Assembly (NCBI RefSeq): GCF_006716305.1
Contig: NZ_VFOU01000001.1
Coordinates: 124,001 to 188,000 of the forward strand
Direction of reading: 5' to 3'
Length of the DNA stretch: 64,000 bases
Origin: Enteractinococcus coprophilus
GTDB lineage: Bacteria; Actinomycetota; Actinomycetes; Actinomycetales; Micrococcaceae
The notes under the pieces were generated by a model, which was not told the origin of the DNA, did not search any database, and worked only from the letters and a program-made list of their open reading frames with translations. A program made the position numbers and the translations under genes. Below are positions 59,607 through 63,943 of the stretch, in pieces. Numbering within the stretch: position 1 is the first letter of the stretch; every line of letters starts with the position of its first letter.

Positions 59607-60977
59607 TTAGATAGCACGTGCGGGAGTAAGGATGCCGTGGGGGTCGAGCGCATGTTTAATCGCACGCTGGGTGTCCAAAACTGCCGCATCGAGTTGGATC
59701 GGTAATTCATGGTGTTTAACCGCCCCAATGCCGTGTTCGCCACTAATGGTCCCACCCAAGGAGACCGCCAGACGCGAGATATCCACGATGACGGCTTCAG
59801 CGGCCGCGTATTCGTCTTCGGTATCGCCGGCTTCCACAGTGGGGTGCAGATTCCCGTCACCCGCGTGGGCCACAATTGAAATCGCCCGGTTATGTTTGGC
59901 AGCGATCTGATCGATACCCCGGAATACATTCGCCAACTCACCGATGGGCACGCCGACATCACACGAGACGCGCAGGCCGCGTGCTGACAACGCCGGGTTA
60001 GCCAGGCGGCGGGCTTCGAGCAGGGCGTCATTTTGTGCGATGACGACGTCGCTGCCACCGTGGCGGGCACAAATTTCGGTGATGGTCTTGGCATCTTCGG
60101 CGGCGTTGTACCCTACCGTCTGGCCGATGAGCAGCGCGGCTTCGGGCACGGTGAGCCCCGAGGGATAAAACTCTTCGATGGTTCTGACGCTGTGGGCGTC
60201 AAGCAGCTCTAACACCTCGGGTTGCGCTTCCCCGTTGACGATTTCGGTGACCGCTTCGCCGGCTGCATGAATCGAATCAAAATTCACCCGAAACGTGTGC
60301 GAGGTGCCCGGTGGTATGGGCTTGAGTCGCACCGTCGCGGCTGTGATGACACCCAGAGTGCCCTCAGAACCAACAAATAAACTCGTCAGATCCAAACCAA
60401 CCACATTTTTGCGGGTCCGAGTTCCGGTGTGCATGATCCGGCCGTCGGCCAGGACAACCTCAAGGGCCGCGACCGAATCGCGGGTCACCCCGTGAGAAAT
60501 ACAGCGTAAACCCCCGGCATTGGTTGCGATATTGCCGCCGACCGTAGAGGTTTCAACACTGGCCGGATCGGGTGGGAAAAATAAGCCGTGCTCGTGAGCC
60601 GCCCGATCAAGGTCGGCCGTAATCACGCCGGCTTCCACGACCGCTAGACGGTTGACCGGGTCGATCTCACGGATCCTATTGCAACGTTCCAGCGAGATGA
60701 CCAGGCCTTGATCATAGGCCACCGCCCCACCGGCTAGCCCGGTGCCTGCACCTCGTACCGACACCGGAACATGATATTGATGTGCCCAGGCCAAAGCGGT
60801 TGCGACGTCGGCGGTTGACGTAGCCATCACCACGGCTAAGGGCCGGCCGTGCGGGGCATAGCGGGAGCTATCGCGGGCCAGTCGGTCGACTTCGGGGCCG
60901 GCTTCAACAATCTTTTCGGCCAGTTGATCTTTAAGTTCGGTGAGCGCTTCGCGCCGCGGCAGTGTTGTGTGGGGCAT
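59607..60977 (-). CDS. FAD-linked oxidase, GlcD/D-lactate dehydrogenase type
   Basis: A 456-residue flavoprotein. The PP-loop FAD domain (about 40-220) has R-G-A-G-T-G-L-A-G-G-A and P-D-P-A-S-V-x-x-S-T-V-G-G-N-I-A-T-N-A-G-G; the C-terminal cap contains A-H-A-G-D-G-N-L-H-P and G-E-H-G-I-G, the metal/hydroxy-acid site of the family. It oxidises a 2-hydroxy acid such as glycolate or D-lactate. AAGGAACACC precedes the ATG. Divergent from the agmatine-deiminase-like gene. Confidence 0.92.
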   Translation of the reverse strand: MPHTTLPRREALTELKDQLAEKIVEAGPEVDRLARDSSRYAPHGRPLAVVMATSTADVATALAWAHQYHVPVSVRGAGTGLAGGAVAYDQGLVISLERCNRIREIDPVNRLAVVEAGVITADLDRAAHEHGLFFPPDPASVETSTVGGNIATNAGGLRCISHGVTRDSVAALEVVLADGRIMHTGTRTRKNVVGLDLTSLFVGSEGTLGVITAATVRLKPIPPGTSHTFRVNFDSIHAAGEAVTEIVNGEAQPEVLELLDAHSVRTIEEFYPSGLTVPEAALLIGQTVGYNAAEDAKTITEICARHGGSDVVIAQNDALLEARRLANPALSARGLRVSCDVGVPIGELANVFRGIDQIAAKHNRAISIVAHAGDGNLHPTVEAGDTEDEYAAAEAVIVDISRLAVSLGGTISGEHGIGAVKHHELPIQLDAAVLDTQRAIKHALDPHGILTPARAI

Positions 60978-61210: not shown

Positions 61211-61297
61211 AAGGCGCAAGGCTCACGCCGCTATTATCCCTTGTGACAGGTCAGTACTTTACAGCTCAGGCATTTCAAGGAAAGAGAGGAATTCCTG

Positions 61298-62398
61298 ATG
61301 GTCCCAGGTTCACGGTGGGTTATCCCAGCCGAGACTGAACCGGTCCAACGTGTCTGGATGAGCTTTCCTCGAGCCGGTGCCGCGAACTTTCGGGCATCCT
61401 GGCAACTCTCCTCGGCCCGGCGCGCTTGGGTCCGGTTGGCTGAAGGAATCAATGACCACGTCCCGGTCACCTTGCTGGTCGATCCGGACGATCAGCGCAC
61501 CGTGAGTTCCCATCTGTCGAAGCCGCTCGACGTCGTCGTCATACCCTTTAATAACGCCTCGATACGGCGCACTGCCGCCACCCTGGTGGTGTCCCGTCAG
61601 GCACAAGCCAACAGCGGACGTCGGCCGCGGCGTGTGCTGGGCATGGTGGATTTCACTTTCAATGGTTTCGGGCACCTACCCGGGGTCGAGTACGGCCTGG
61701 ATGACAAGGTCCCAGGCACCCTGTCTGAACTGTTGCCCGGCGAACGCGGATGGGGGCACCGCAATTTTTCGATGATGGTCGGCGAGGGCGGTTCCTGGGT
61801 GACCGATGGTGCCGGCACCGCGATTGCTTCCGAGGCGATTTTGACTGATCAGCGGCGCAACCCGGGCTGGAATACTCGCTCGGTCGAACGCGAAATGCGG
61901 CGCAACCTCGGGTTGGAACAGATCATCTGGATCCCCCAAGGCCTGACCCGCGGGGCGGCCCCGGTTGGGTGGGGCGGTTATGCCGATCAGGTCGTGGCTT
62001 TCCACTCCCCCGGCCGCGTGCTACTGCACAACCAACCGGATCCCAGCCACCCGGATCACGCCGTCAGCCAGCAGGTGCGCGAAATTCTCAGCTCCGCGCA
62101 CGATGCGACCGGCCAGGGGTTTGACATCATTGACGTTCCAGCGCCCCAAACACATTCGGATCTTAGCGGTCCGGTCAACTGGTCCTACCTGGATTTTCTG
62201 ATCCTCAATGACGTCATCGTGATGCCACGATTCATCGACCCCTTCGATGCTCAGGCCTATGAGCTGATGCAAAAGCTGTATCCCGAACACCGGATCATCC
62301 AGTTCACCGCCCAGGCGCTATTTGATCACGGGGCCTCAATCCGGGCGATTACGCTGCCCCAACCGCGCGTTAGTCGACGTCGCGAAAGACTTAGCTGA
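61298..62398 (+). CDS. Agmatine-deiminase-fold protein lacking catalytic residues
   Basis: A 366-residue protein aligned over its full length with the PPAD/agmatine deiminase family: V-D-F-T-F-N-G-F-G near 118, G-G-S-W-V-T-D-G-A-G-T near 164, R-N-P near 187, W-I-P-Q-G-L near 211. The active-site motifs are altered: family W-M-R-D-x-G-P is S-I-R-R-T-A-A (88-94), G-H-V-D is G-Y-A-D (227-230), and I-H-C is I-R-A (348-350), so the nucleophilic Cys is Ala350. It is an intact frame with AGAGG upstream; an inactive paralogue with binding function is inferred. Confidence 0.8.
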   Translation: MVPGSRWVIPAETEPVQRVWMSFPRAGAANFRASWQLSSARRAWVRLAEGINDHVPVTLLVDPDDQRTVSSHLSKPLDVVVIPFNNASIRRTAATLVVSRQAQANSGRRPRRVLGMVDFTFNGFGHLPGVEYGLDDKVPGTLSELLPGERGWGHRNFSMMVGEGGSWVTDGAGTAIASEAILTDQRRNPGWNTRSVEREMRRNLGLEQIIWIPQGLTRGAAPVGWGGYADQVVAFHSPGRVLLHNQPDPSHPDHAVSQQVREILSSAHDATGQGFDIIDVPAPQTHSDLSGPVNWSYLDFLILNDVIVMPRFIDPFDAQAYELMQKLYPEHRIIQFTAQALFDHGASIRAITLPQPRVSRRRERLS

Positions 62399-62479
62399 CG
62401 GGCACAAAAGCCTCGTAGGCCACAGCGGGACCCGGCCACAAACGATATCGTGAGCATAACGACGTCGATGAGGAGCCCA

Positions 62480-63943
62480 GTGACCAGACAGAAGATGACC
62501 GGTGTGCAGCGAGCCATTTTGGCGGTTGTGTTAGTTCCCGTCTTCATGTCGTTACTATCGATCTCCTCGATCAACGTGATCCTGCCGTCGGTCAAAGAGT
62601 CCCTGGACGCGTCCAATAGTGCCATCCAGTGGGTGTTATCCGGGTACACGCTGGCCTTCGGAGTCCTCCTGGTGGCCGGTGGTCGTGCCGGCGACACCTT
62701 CGGGCGCGGCAGGCTTTTCGTTGCAGGTCTGACGCTATTTGGCTTGGGCTCGCTACTGGCCGGATTCGCACTCAACGGCCCGATGTTGGTCATCGCCCGG
62801 CTGATTACCGGGTTTGGTTCCGGGCTACTCAACCCGCAAACCGTGGGCTTTATTCAACAGTTTTTCGACGGCCCACGCCGAGCGCGGGCGTTTGCATCAT
62901 TTGGTTCAGTCGTCGGGGTGTCGGTGGCCATCGGTCCGGTCCTGGGCGGGGGGCTCATCGCCTTAGCCGGGCCGGATTGGGGTTGGCGTTGGACGTTTTT
63001 GGTCAACGTCCCCATCGCGATCGTGGCGATTATCGTCGCCTACCGGACGTTCCCGAAGGCGGCCTGGGTGCCGGATGCGCCGGAAGGTACTGCATCACAA
63101 CCCGGCAAACCAGACCTGGATCCCATTGGCACCGTGGCCTTTACGCTGGGCACTCTGTTGGTCATGTGGACGTTTTTAGAAATTGACAAGGGCGGGATCT
63201 ACTGGGCCATGCTGCCCGTGGGCATTGTCATGTTGGTGTGGTGGGTGTGGTGGGAGCGCCGTTATAAACGCCGCGGCGGCGCACCCATGGTCGATATGGC
63301 GCTGTTTCGTAACAGGTCGTATCGTAACGGCTCGCTGCTAATCAGCCTATTTTTCACCGGGTCTACGTCTGTGTGGGTGACCGTCGCAATCTTTTTACAA
63401 ACCGGGCACGGCATTTCGGCCCTGATCGCAGCTCTGGTCGGGATCCCCTCGGCCATTGCGACCTCGATCTCGTCGGTGATCGCCGGCCGGTATGTGTTAT
63501 CCGCCGGGCGCGCGATGGTCGCCTGGGGTATGAGCGTGACCATACTTGCACTGAGCACCTCAATCCTGGTGGTCGTTGGGGTGCAATTATGGGATTGGTC
63601 ACTGTGGTGGCTCATCGCAACCCTCTCCCTCTTGGGAGTCGCCCAAGGATTTATCGTCTCACCGAATCAAACCCTGTCGCTGATGGAAGTACCGGCGTAT
63701 GTCTCCGGAGTTGCCGGCGCCGTGATGCAAACCGGTCAGCGCGTAGGCACCTCGGTCGGGACCGCGATCATCACCTCGATACTGTTCGGTATTGCCGCAG
63801 CGTTCTCCTGGAACTGGGCATTCGTAGCTGCCTTCGGGACGATCCTGGCGTTAGTTTCCATCGCGCTGCTCGTGGCGATCGTCGACATCATCGGAACACG
63901 CCGCGCCCAAGCCGCCGTCCCGCAAGGGGATGAAGGTCGCTAA
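62480..63943 (+). CDS. MFS transporter, DHA2 (14-TM) family
   Basis: A 487-residue exporter with 14 TM helices, similar in layout to the 41399-42895 protein. Motif A is G-R-A-G-D-T-F-G-R-G-R, and motif C-like G-V-S-V-A-I-G-P-V-L-G-G is in TM5. GTG at 62480 is chosen because AGGAG sits just upstream; starts at 62450 and 62495 are alternatives. It follows the agmatine-deiminase-like gene by 81 bp on the same strand, so the two may form a unit. The final 57 bp of the window hold no gene. Confidence 0.88.
   Translation: MTRQKMTGVQRAILAVVLVPVFMSLLSISSINVILPSVKESLDASNSAIQWVLSGYTLAFGVLLVAGGRAGDTFGRGRLFVAGLTLFGLGSLLAGFALNGPMLVIARLITGFGSGLLNPQTVGFIQQFFDGPRRARAFASFGSVVGVSVAIGPVLGGGLIALAGPDWGWRWTFLVNVPIAIVAIIVAYRTFPKAAWVPDAPEGTASQPGKPDLDPIGTVAFTLGTLLVMWTFLEIDKGGIYWAMLPVGIVMLVWWVWWERRYKRRGGAPMVDMALFRNRSYRNGSLLISLFFTGSTSVWVTVAIFLQTGHGISALIAALVGIPSAIATSISSVIAGRYVLSAGRAMVAWGMSVTILALSTSILVVVGVQLWDWSLWWLIATLSLLGVAQGFIVSPNQTLSLMEVPAYVSGVAGAVMQTGQRVGTSVGTAIITSILFGIAAAFSWNWAFVAAFGTILALVSIALLVAIVDIIGTRRAQAAVPQGDEGR

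Follow-up and report, generated by a model that had tools for sequence, protein, structure and literature searches.

The agmatine deiminase homologue encoded in the window (the analysed 64,000-nucleotide stretch of the Enteractinococcus coprophilus genome) is, on balance, to be read as a non-catalytic pseudoenzyme of the AguA fold that has retained its pocket, in which the loss of chemistry happened, most simply, once and which has since been kept for a non-catalytic job. The nucleophilic cysteine and one guanidine-binding aspartate are gone from all 19 orthologues compared, the general-acid histidine is gone from 14 of them, and no other cysteine has taken over. The proteins keep the fold, the glutamate of the EGG motif and the aspartate of the GHxD motif, and purifying selection is measurable in two genera.

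The gene, its family and its fold

The pseudo-agmatine-deiminase gene (61298..62398, + strand) encodes a protein of 366 residues with no cysteine, and is preceded by an RBS-like GAGAGG (61284..61289, + strand) 8 bases 5' of the ATG. Either GAGAGG or GGAGG is found 5' of the ATG in all nine orthologues from the window's own genus (Yaniella/Enteractinococcus, here g1; g2, g4, g15 and g17 denote other Micrococcaceae genera). An earlier sequence-only reading had located the open frame and its ribosome site correctly, and had described a full-length agmatine deiminase scaffold, a description that profile searches bear out: the protein belongs to PF04371 (PAD_porph) with 227.1 bits against a gathering cut-off of 25 (4.1e-67, residues 9-356). 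It falls outside the TIGR03380 agmatine_aguA equivalog, with 174.7 bits against a cut-off of 381.8, and reaches 162 against a cut-off of 483 with the NF010070 agmatine deiminase model. It is the single family match in its own genome (2.88 Mb, 100% complete, E<=0.001), and its named close relatives are found in Enteractinococcus helveticum (91% identity) and Yaniella halotolerans (72%). Scans for promoters (none promoter-like) and terminators (three terminator-like against 1.1 expected) gave nothing useful. A separate observation on the same genome is that, in addition to a complete rpoB on contig C5, it has an extra RpoB C-terminal piece outside the window (G000:C4:336611-337447; a 332-aa frame, 484.9 bits), which reflects either a partial duplication or contamination (reported at 3.93%).

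Among solved structures, the nearest belong to agmatine deiminases of plants and enterococci (6nib, 1vkp/3h7c, 2jer). An earlier model built from clade rows alone was poor (pLDDT 60.3), and with canonical rows added (an alignment of 39 rows) the predicted structure reached a pLDDT of 87.6 and a pTM of 0.89. Its top Foldseek match is 6nic, the Medicago AIH (1.3e-33), and VIA-align gave Z 45.5 and an rmsd of 1.9-2.0 over 339 residues to 1vkp and 3h7c (Arabidopsis AIH). The predicted model has the pentein alpha/beta propeller fold, and the structural check proposed in the sequence-only reading points to an agmatine deiminase fold. Set against the characterized AguA/AIH enzymes (TIGR03380, EC 3.5.3.12; 1vkp, 3h7c, 6nib, 2jer), the window protein shares the fold over 331-342 residues at 25-30% identity (Z 44.0-45.5) and keeps the active-site Glu and Asp, but it lacks the Cys, the general-acid His and one guanidine-binding Asp, as well as scoring below the equivalog cut-off. 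Likewise, it lies above the gathering score of the Porphyromonas-type peptidylarginine deiminase family, yet has no counterpart of the catalytic Cys found in the enzymes of that family.

Remodelling of the active site

Active-site positions are numbered here after the E. faecalis enzyme (2jer), to which the window protein was aligned and in which we take D96, E157, H218, D220 and C357 to carry the catalytic roles. The canonical motif (D/E)-x-W-x-R-D-x-G-P is replaced by NASIRRTAA (residues 86-94; 61553..61579, + strand), where the guanidine-binding D96 has become R91 and W93 has become S88. In place of xGHVD stands GGYAD (residues 226-230; 61973..61987, + strand), with Y228 for the general-acid H218 and D230 for the conserved D220, whilst GGGIHC is replaced by GASIRA (residues 345-350; 62330..62347, + strand), in which the nucleophile C357 is A350 and the adjoining H356 is R349. 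The canonical FNGWG reads FNGFG (residues 121-125; 61658..61672, + strand), F124 being found in 17/17 pseudo-deiminase rows aligned and Trp in 39/39 canonical rows. The EGG motif (residues 163-165; 61784..61792, + strand) is unaltered and retains E157 as E163. The earlier claim that every catalytic motif had been replaced therefore stands for the Cys, the His and one Asp and fails for E163 and D230, which are kept in 19/19 orthologues. The R-R-T-A-A described there is present in the window protein, but the loss of both the Gly and the Pro of R-D-x-G-P is confined, among the 19, to the window species and E. helveticum; the remaining seven g1 orthologues read R-R-T-G-P or, in L006 alone, R-R-T-G-F.

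In the Medicago AIH study, the catalytic equivalents are given as Cys366, Asp226 and His224, Trp91, Trp125 and Asp89 are named as channel residues, the channel is described as negatively charged, and deiminase chemistry of the known kind is said to require a Cys nucleophile and a His acid (PMC6447857). Because that chemistry needs both, the loss of known deiminase activity in the window protein is, judged from its sequence, close to certain. An alternative cysteine in the pocket, which would have told against this conclusion, is ruled out: 18 of the 19 clade proteins are free of cysteine, and the remaining one has a single Cys at residue 217 (the 39 canonical rows have 1-5 cysteines each). When mapped by hand on the alignment, Medicago Asp89 corresponds to N86 and Trp125 to F124, so that the channel appears to have lost two acids (N86, R91) and gained two arginines (R91, R349), a change of charge read from residues and not from coordinates. 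The change would be weaker outside g1: g4 has Leu at 91, and the canonical Arg at 90 is replaced by Gly in g2, in g17 and in three genomes of g4.

A clade of orthologues in four genera

An orthologue is present in every genome examined of four Micrococcaceae genera (g1 9/9, g4 8/8, g2 1/1, g17 1/1). In all 19 the Cys and D96 are replaced and E157 and D220 are kept, which answers the call of the sequence-only reading for clade members with the same substitutions, and because these replacements recur in 19/19 genomes of four genera, chance or sequencing error is excluded. The motif comparison covered these 19 clade rows and 39 canonical rows (three more canonical copies were checked separately). 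Whilst all 39 canonical actinobacterial rows have W/D/E/H/D/C at 93/96/157/218/220/357, the clade has R (11) or L (8) at position 96, Y (9), H (5), Q (4) or M (1) at position 218, and A (11), H (5) or Q (3) at position 357. The clade has also fixed residues of its own at positions where the canonical rows read otherwise, among them F124, G129, L182, P310, R349 and L353 (in 17/17 rows aligned; two of the 19, the near-copies L020 and L026, were dropped from this profile comparison). Also newly fixed are W35, S38, R42 and R46, all in an N-terminal helix (34-52) and away from the pocket motifs.

When 395 family genomes were searched with a profile, the 19 orthologues scored 580-673 bits and the next match 348 bits. 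In a phylum sample of 396 genomes searched at E<=1e-95, a cut-off blind to members as diverged as those of g15, the window's own genome stood alone in that score range. Loci were taken for 30 of the 46 family matches listed, and there may be further clade members among the weak or partial family matches (e.g. G021, G033, G082, G096, G101, G117). Alignment A2 was made without L123 and L132, each with a stop in the stretch, and without L131, which has none. Phylogenetically, the 19 orthologues form one clade (100/100, stem 1.53) apart from the 39 canonical rows, three of which were trimmed to their last 360 residues. Eight of the genomes with a pseudo-deiminase were included in an rpoB tree of 30 genomes, where they group with a g15 genome in a single nine-member clade (100/100); the trait thus fits vertical descent from one ancestor.

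Purifying selection and its relaxation in a fifth genus

The gene is under constraint in the window's genus. Its median dN/dS in g1 is 0.121, against 0.078-0.133 for four neighbours, and the lowest-dS pairs give 0.06-0.07. Within an earlier gene set (MFS 0.100, FAD oxidase 0.081, YdcZ 0.134, SBP 0.136, AspA/FumC 0.058, SNF2 0.035) the value lies in the upper half of the range of the six neighbours, two of which (0.035, 0.058) are clearly more constrained. In g4 the median is 0.228 against 0.315-0.326 for three neighbours (0.266 against 0.327 and 0.337 in the earlier set); NG86 underestimates dS at GC3 of 0.93-0.98, and the g4 and g15 values are comparable only within their genus. Judged by the range of the neighbours, purifying selection is seen in g1 and g4 and not in g15; g2 and g17 are represented by one genome each. 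Stop-to-stop frames of 367-434 aa surround the match in 19/19 orthologues. The frame is therefore neither disrupted nor, in g1, neutrally evolving, and the sequence-only reading was right that this is not a simple pseudogene: the catalytic residues are lost, as in a pseudoenzyme, and decay in the window's genus is ruled out by 9/9 open frames and a dN/dS within the neighbours' range. Its proposed check, a dN/dS near 1 in relatives as a sign of decay, gave no such sign in g1 but uncovered relaxation in the fifth genus.

The g15 genomes (2.3-2.7 Mb, GC3 about 0.95) gave only weak matches in the initial search, and the gene is present in 7 of the 11 (L179-L185). The proteins are of 333-360 residues as trimmed and score 99 and 109 bits with PF04371 (two of the seven were scanned). 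Together with the 19 others they form one clade of 26 rows (100/100, in a tree with 22 of the 39 canonical rows), although a stem of 2.1 makes their place inside it unsure. The median dN/dS is 0.70 against 0.33, 0.34 and 0.48 for three neighbours, or 1.5-2 times the neighbours' values. The 19 constrained members share 82 invariant columns, of which 12 lie in the catalytic motif blocks; none of the 12 is kept in at least six of the seven g15 rows, against 33 of the 70 other invariants (Fisher p 0.0012, from one lineage, with blocks and the 6/7 threshold chosen by the authors, an uncertain alignment and columns that are not independent). Nine of the 12 are found in no g15 row, two in one row each, and G227 in four. 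Since the pocket-block residues are not kept in relaxed g15, we read this as selection in the constrained genera holding the pocket as well as the shell.

Gene neighbourhood

Downstream of the gene lies an MFS transporter (DHA2/EmrB-like; 62450..63943, + strand), co-directional and beginning 51 bases after the stop. The exporter noted next door in the sequence-only reading is a recurrent neighbour, being the next gene 3' on the same strand in all nine g1 loci, one of which ends at a contig end, and in the one g17 genome. The gap in g1 is 8-92 bases in eight loci, with an overlap in one if the upstream start is counted there; in g17 it is 36 bases. The FAD-linked oxidase (GlcD-like; 59607..60977, - strand) is indeed a divergent neighbour in 8/9 g1 loci, as had been pointed out, but this arrangement is confined to g1, the G003 locus is without it, and the oxidase is probably not part of the pseudo-deiminase unit.

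Elsewhere the surroundings differ. In g4 the gene adjoins the bifunctional proline dehydrogenase/P5C dehydrogenase PutA, clearly so in seven of eight loci, the eighth showing a 76-bit PutA piece at a contig end, and in 4/8 loci a LysR-type gene lies between the two. In g15 PutA is adjacent in 4/7 loci and AI2E and SBP genes are near in 7/7, and at the g2 locus no neighbour (MFS, PutA or others) is shared with other genera. At none of 21 canonical AguA loci does a PutA match exceed 27% identity or 106 bits in the stretches compared, which is the level of generic aldehyde dehydrogenases only. An association with PutA as a general rule was rejected: it is true of g4, of four of seven g15 loci and of g17 (with a dead PutA-like protein nearby), whereas in g1 and g2 the PutA matches lie elsewhere. 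The flanking YdcZ, M23, SBP, AI2E and PutA genes, shared in varied pairings, suggest one ancestral locus that was later reshuffled.

The g17 PutA-like protein (1134 aa, L046:11141-14545, genome G024) has itself lost its catalytic motifs. The ALDH motif GQKC is GQTP and ETSGK is GFSSK, the ProDH motifs are gone and there is no Pfam Pro_dh match; a second PutA in G024 (L135) has its motifs. Two dead relatives of amino-acid catabolic enzymes are thus found close together in g17.

Competing explanations

Two readings that would tie the gene to a live activity or to none are both very improbable. The suggestion in the sequence-only reading of an anti-enzyme or subunit of AguA, that is, a regulatory, inactive and prozyme-like partner of a canonical agmatine deiminase, could draw on the solved relatives being dimers (PMC6447857) and on a second copy with canonical motifs in four of the 19 genomes (G003, G011, G087, G149). 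In 15/19, however, including the window's own complete genome, no other AguA was found at E<=0.001 (two of the 15 are incomplete, G001 at 88% and G007 at 71%), and the role of AguA partner is disfavoured because no live AguA was found in those genomes. That the gene is a decaying pseudogene has equally little in its favour; it would suit g15, with its raised dN/dS and presence in 7/11 genomes, but not the window's genus, for the reasons of frame and dN/dS given above.

The protein might instead act as a scaffold or adaptor through surface contacts with the MFS transporter, PutA or another enzyme partner, its pocket being a relic or plugged by Arg91 and Arg349 salt-bridged to Glu163 and Asp230; human PADI6, with its blocked pocket, would be comparable. 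This is unlikely, though it deserves more weight than the other rivals: the catalytic positions vary between genera, the newly fixed W35, S38, R42 and R46 sit outside the pocket motifs, and hPADI6, which has this fold, is described as inactive, with its active site blocked and an Arg as gatekeeper (PMC11402830). What a scaffold would not lead one to expect is that E163, G164, G165, N122 and D230 are invariant in 19/19 constrained members, a class of residues not kept on relaxation. A different enzyme, in which Glu163, Asp230, Asn122 and the new Arg349 form a cysteine-independent active site for another substrate, would account for the invariance of these four residues and the good conservation of the gene in the constrained genera, but is distinctly improbable, as the residues at 350 (Ala, His or Gln), 228 (Tyr, His, Gln or Met) and 91 (Arg or Leu) depend on the genus, unlike those of a fixed catalytic centre, and no enzyme-like operon is common to the genera.

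A proposed role for the retained pocket

Under the favoured reading of a pocket-retaining pseudoenzyme, a protein of the agmatine deiminase family (AguA, PAD_porph, pentein), passed on by vertical descent, would have lost its deiminase chemistry in the ancestor of five Micrococcaceae genera. The pocket, altered by Asp->Asn, Asp->Arg or Leu, His->Arg and Trp->Phe, may still bind a small molecule other than agmatine, and the putative ligand would more likely be anionic or zwitterionic. A ligand-dependent change of shape, or the binding of a partner, would then regulate a neighbouring function, which in Yaniella/Enteractinococcus would be the co-directional MFS exporter and in g4 possibly proline catabolism (PutA). 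It is doubtful that there is only one regulatory target, because the neighbourhood changes across the clade (MFS in g1 and g17, PutA in g4, none shared in g2), and a shared ligand would fit poorly with pocket positions that vary by genus (R/L, Y/H/Q/M, A/H/Q). No DNA-binding domain or partner was identified for the pseudo-deiminase. The guanidine sensor put forward in the sequence-only reading may or may not hold: the lost guanidine-binding acid and the changed Trp walls argue against agmatine, but two acids remain. A bolder version is offered tentatively, and we think it more doubtful than probable: a metabolite receptor, converted once only in one Micrococcaceae branch, with its channel turned toward positive charge and in control of efflux or of arginine/proline-derived metabolism. 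It would then be the first family of pseudo-agmatine-deiminases in bacteria, its five genera forming a series from nearly intact (His, Glu and Asp kept) through remodelled to pocket-less decay.

Relation to known pseudoenzymes and significance

To our knowledge, bacterial pseudoenzymes have seldom been documented. No bacterial pseudo-agmatine-deiminase was found among the matches listed from the open-access literature, which is weak evidence of absence, subscription papers lying mostly outside that scope. The nearest published parallel seen is human PADI6, which has the same superfamily fold, is inactive in vitro on standard substrates, is vital in vivo and has a pocket-gating Arg (PMC11402830). 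PADI6 nevertheless retains a displaced Cys and Asp/His, whereas the bacterial clade has lost the Cys and one Asp, and the PADI chains compared (PADI6 not among them) show 11-14% identity to the window protein. The trypanosome AdoMetDC prozyme is likewise described as a dead paralogue in polyamine metabolism (PMC6221367), but it works by activating a live paralogue that the cell also has, and here none was found in 15/19 genomes.

The clade is best regarded as a pseudoenzyme branch of a known family. The name 'deiminase' that an annotation would derive from Pfam would imply a pathway step that the window protein almost certainly cannot perform. The clade offers a natural series. A canonical outgroup is followed by pseudoenzymes that are still constrained, their active sites lost to differing degrees, and these by a relaxing genus in which the gene is missing from some genomes. 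With that last genus as an internal control, it can be asked what residues remain necessary in a dead enzyme.
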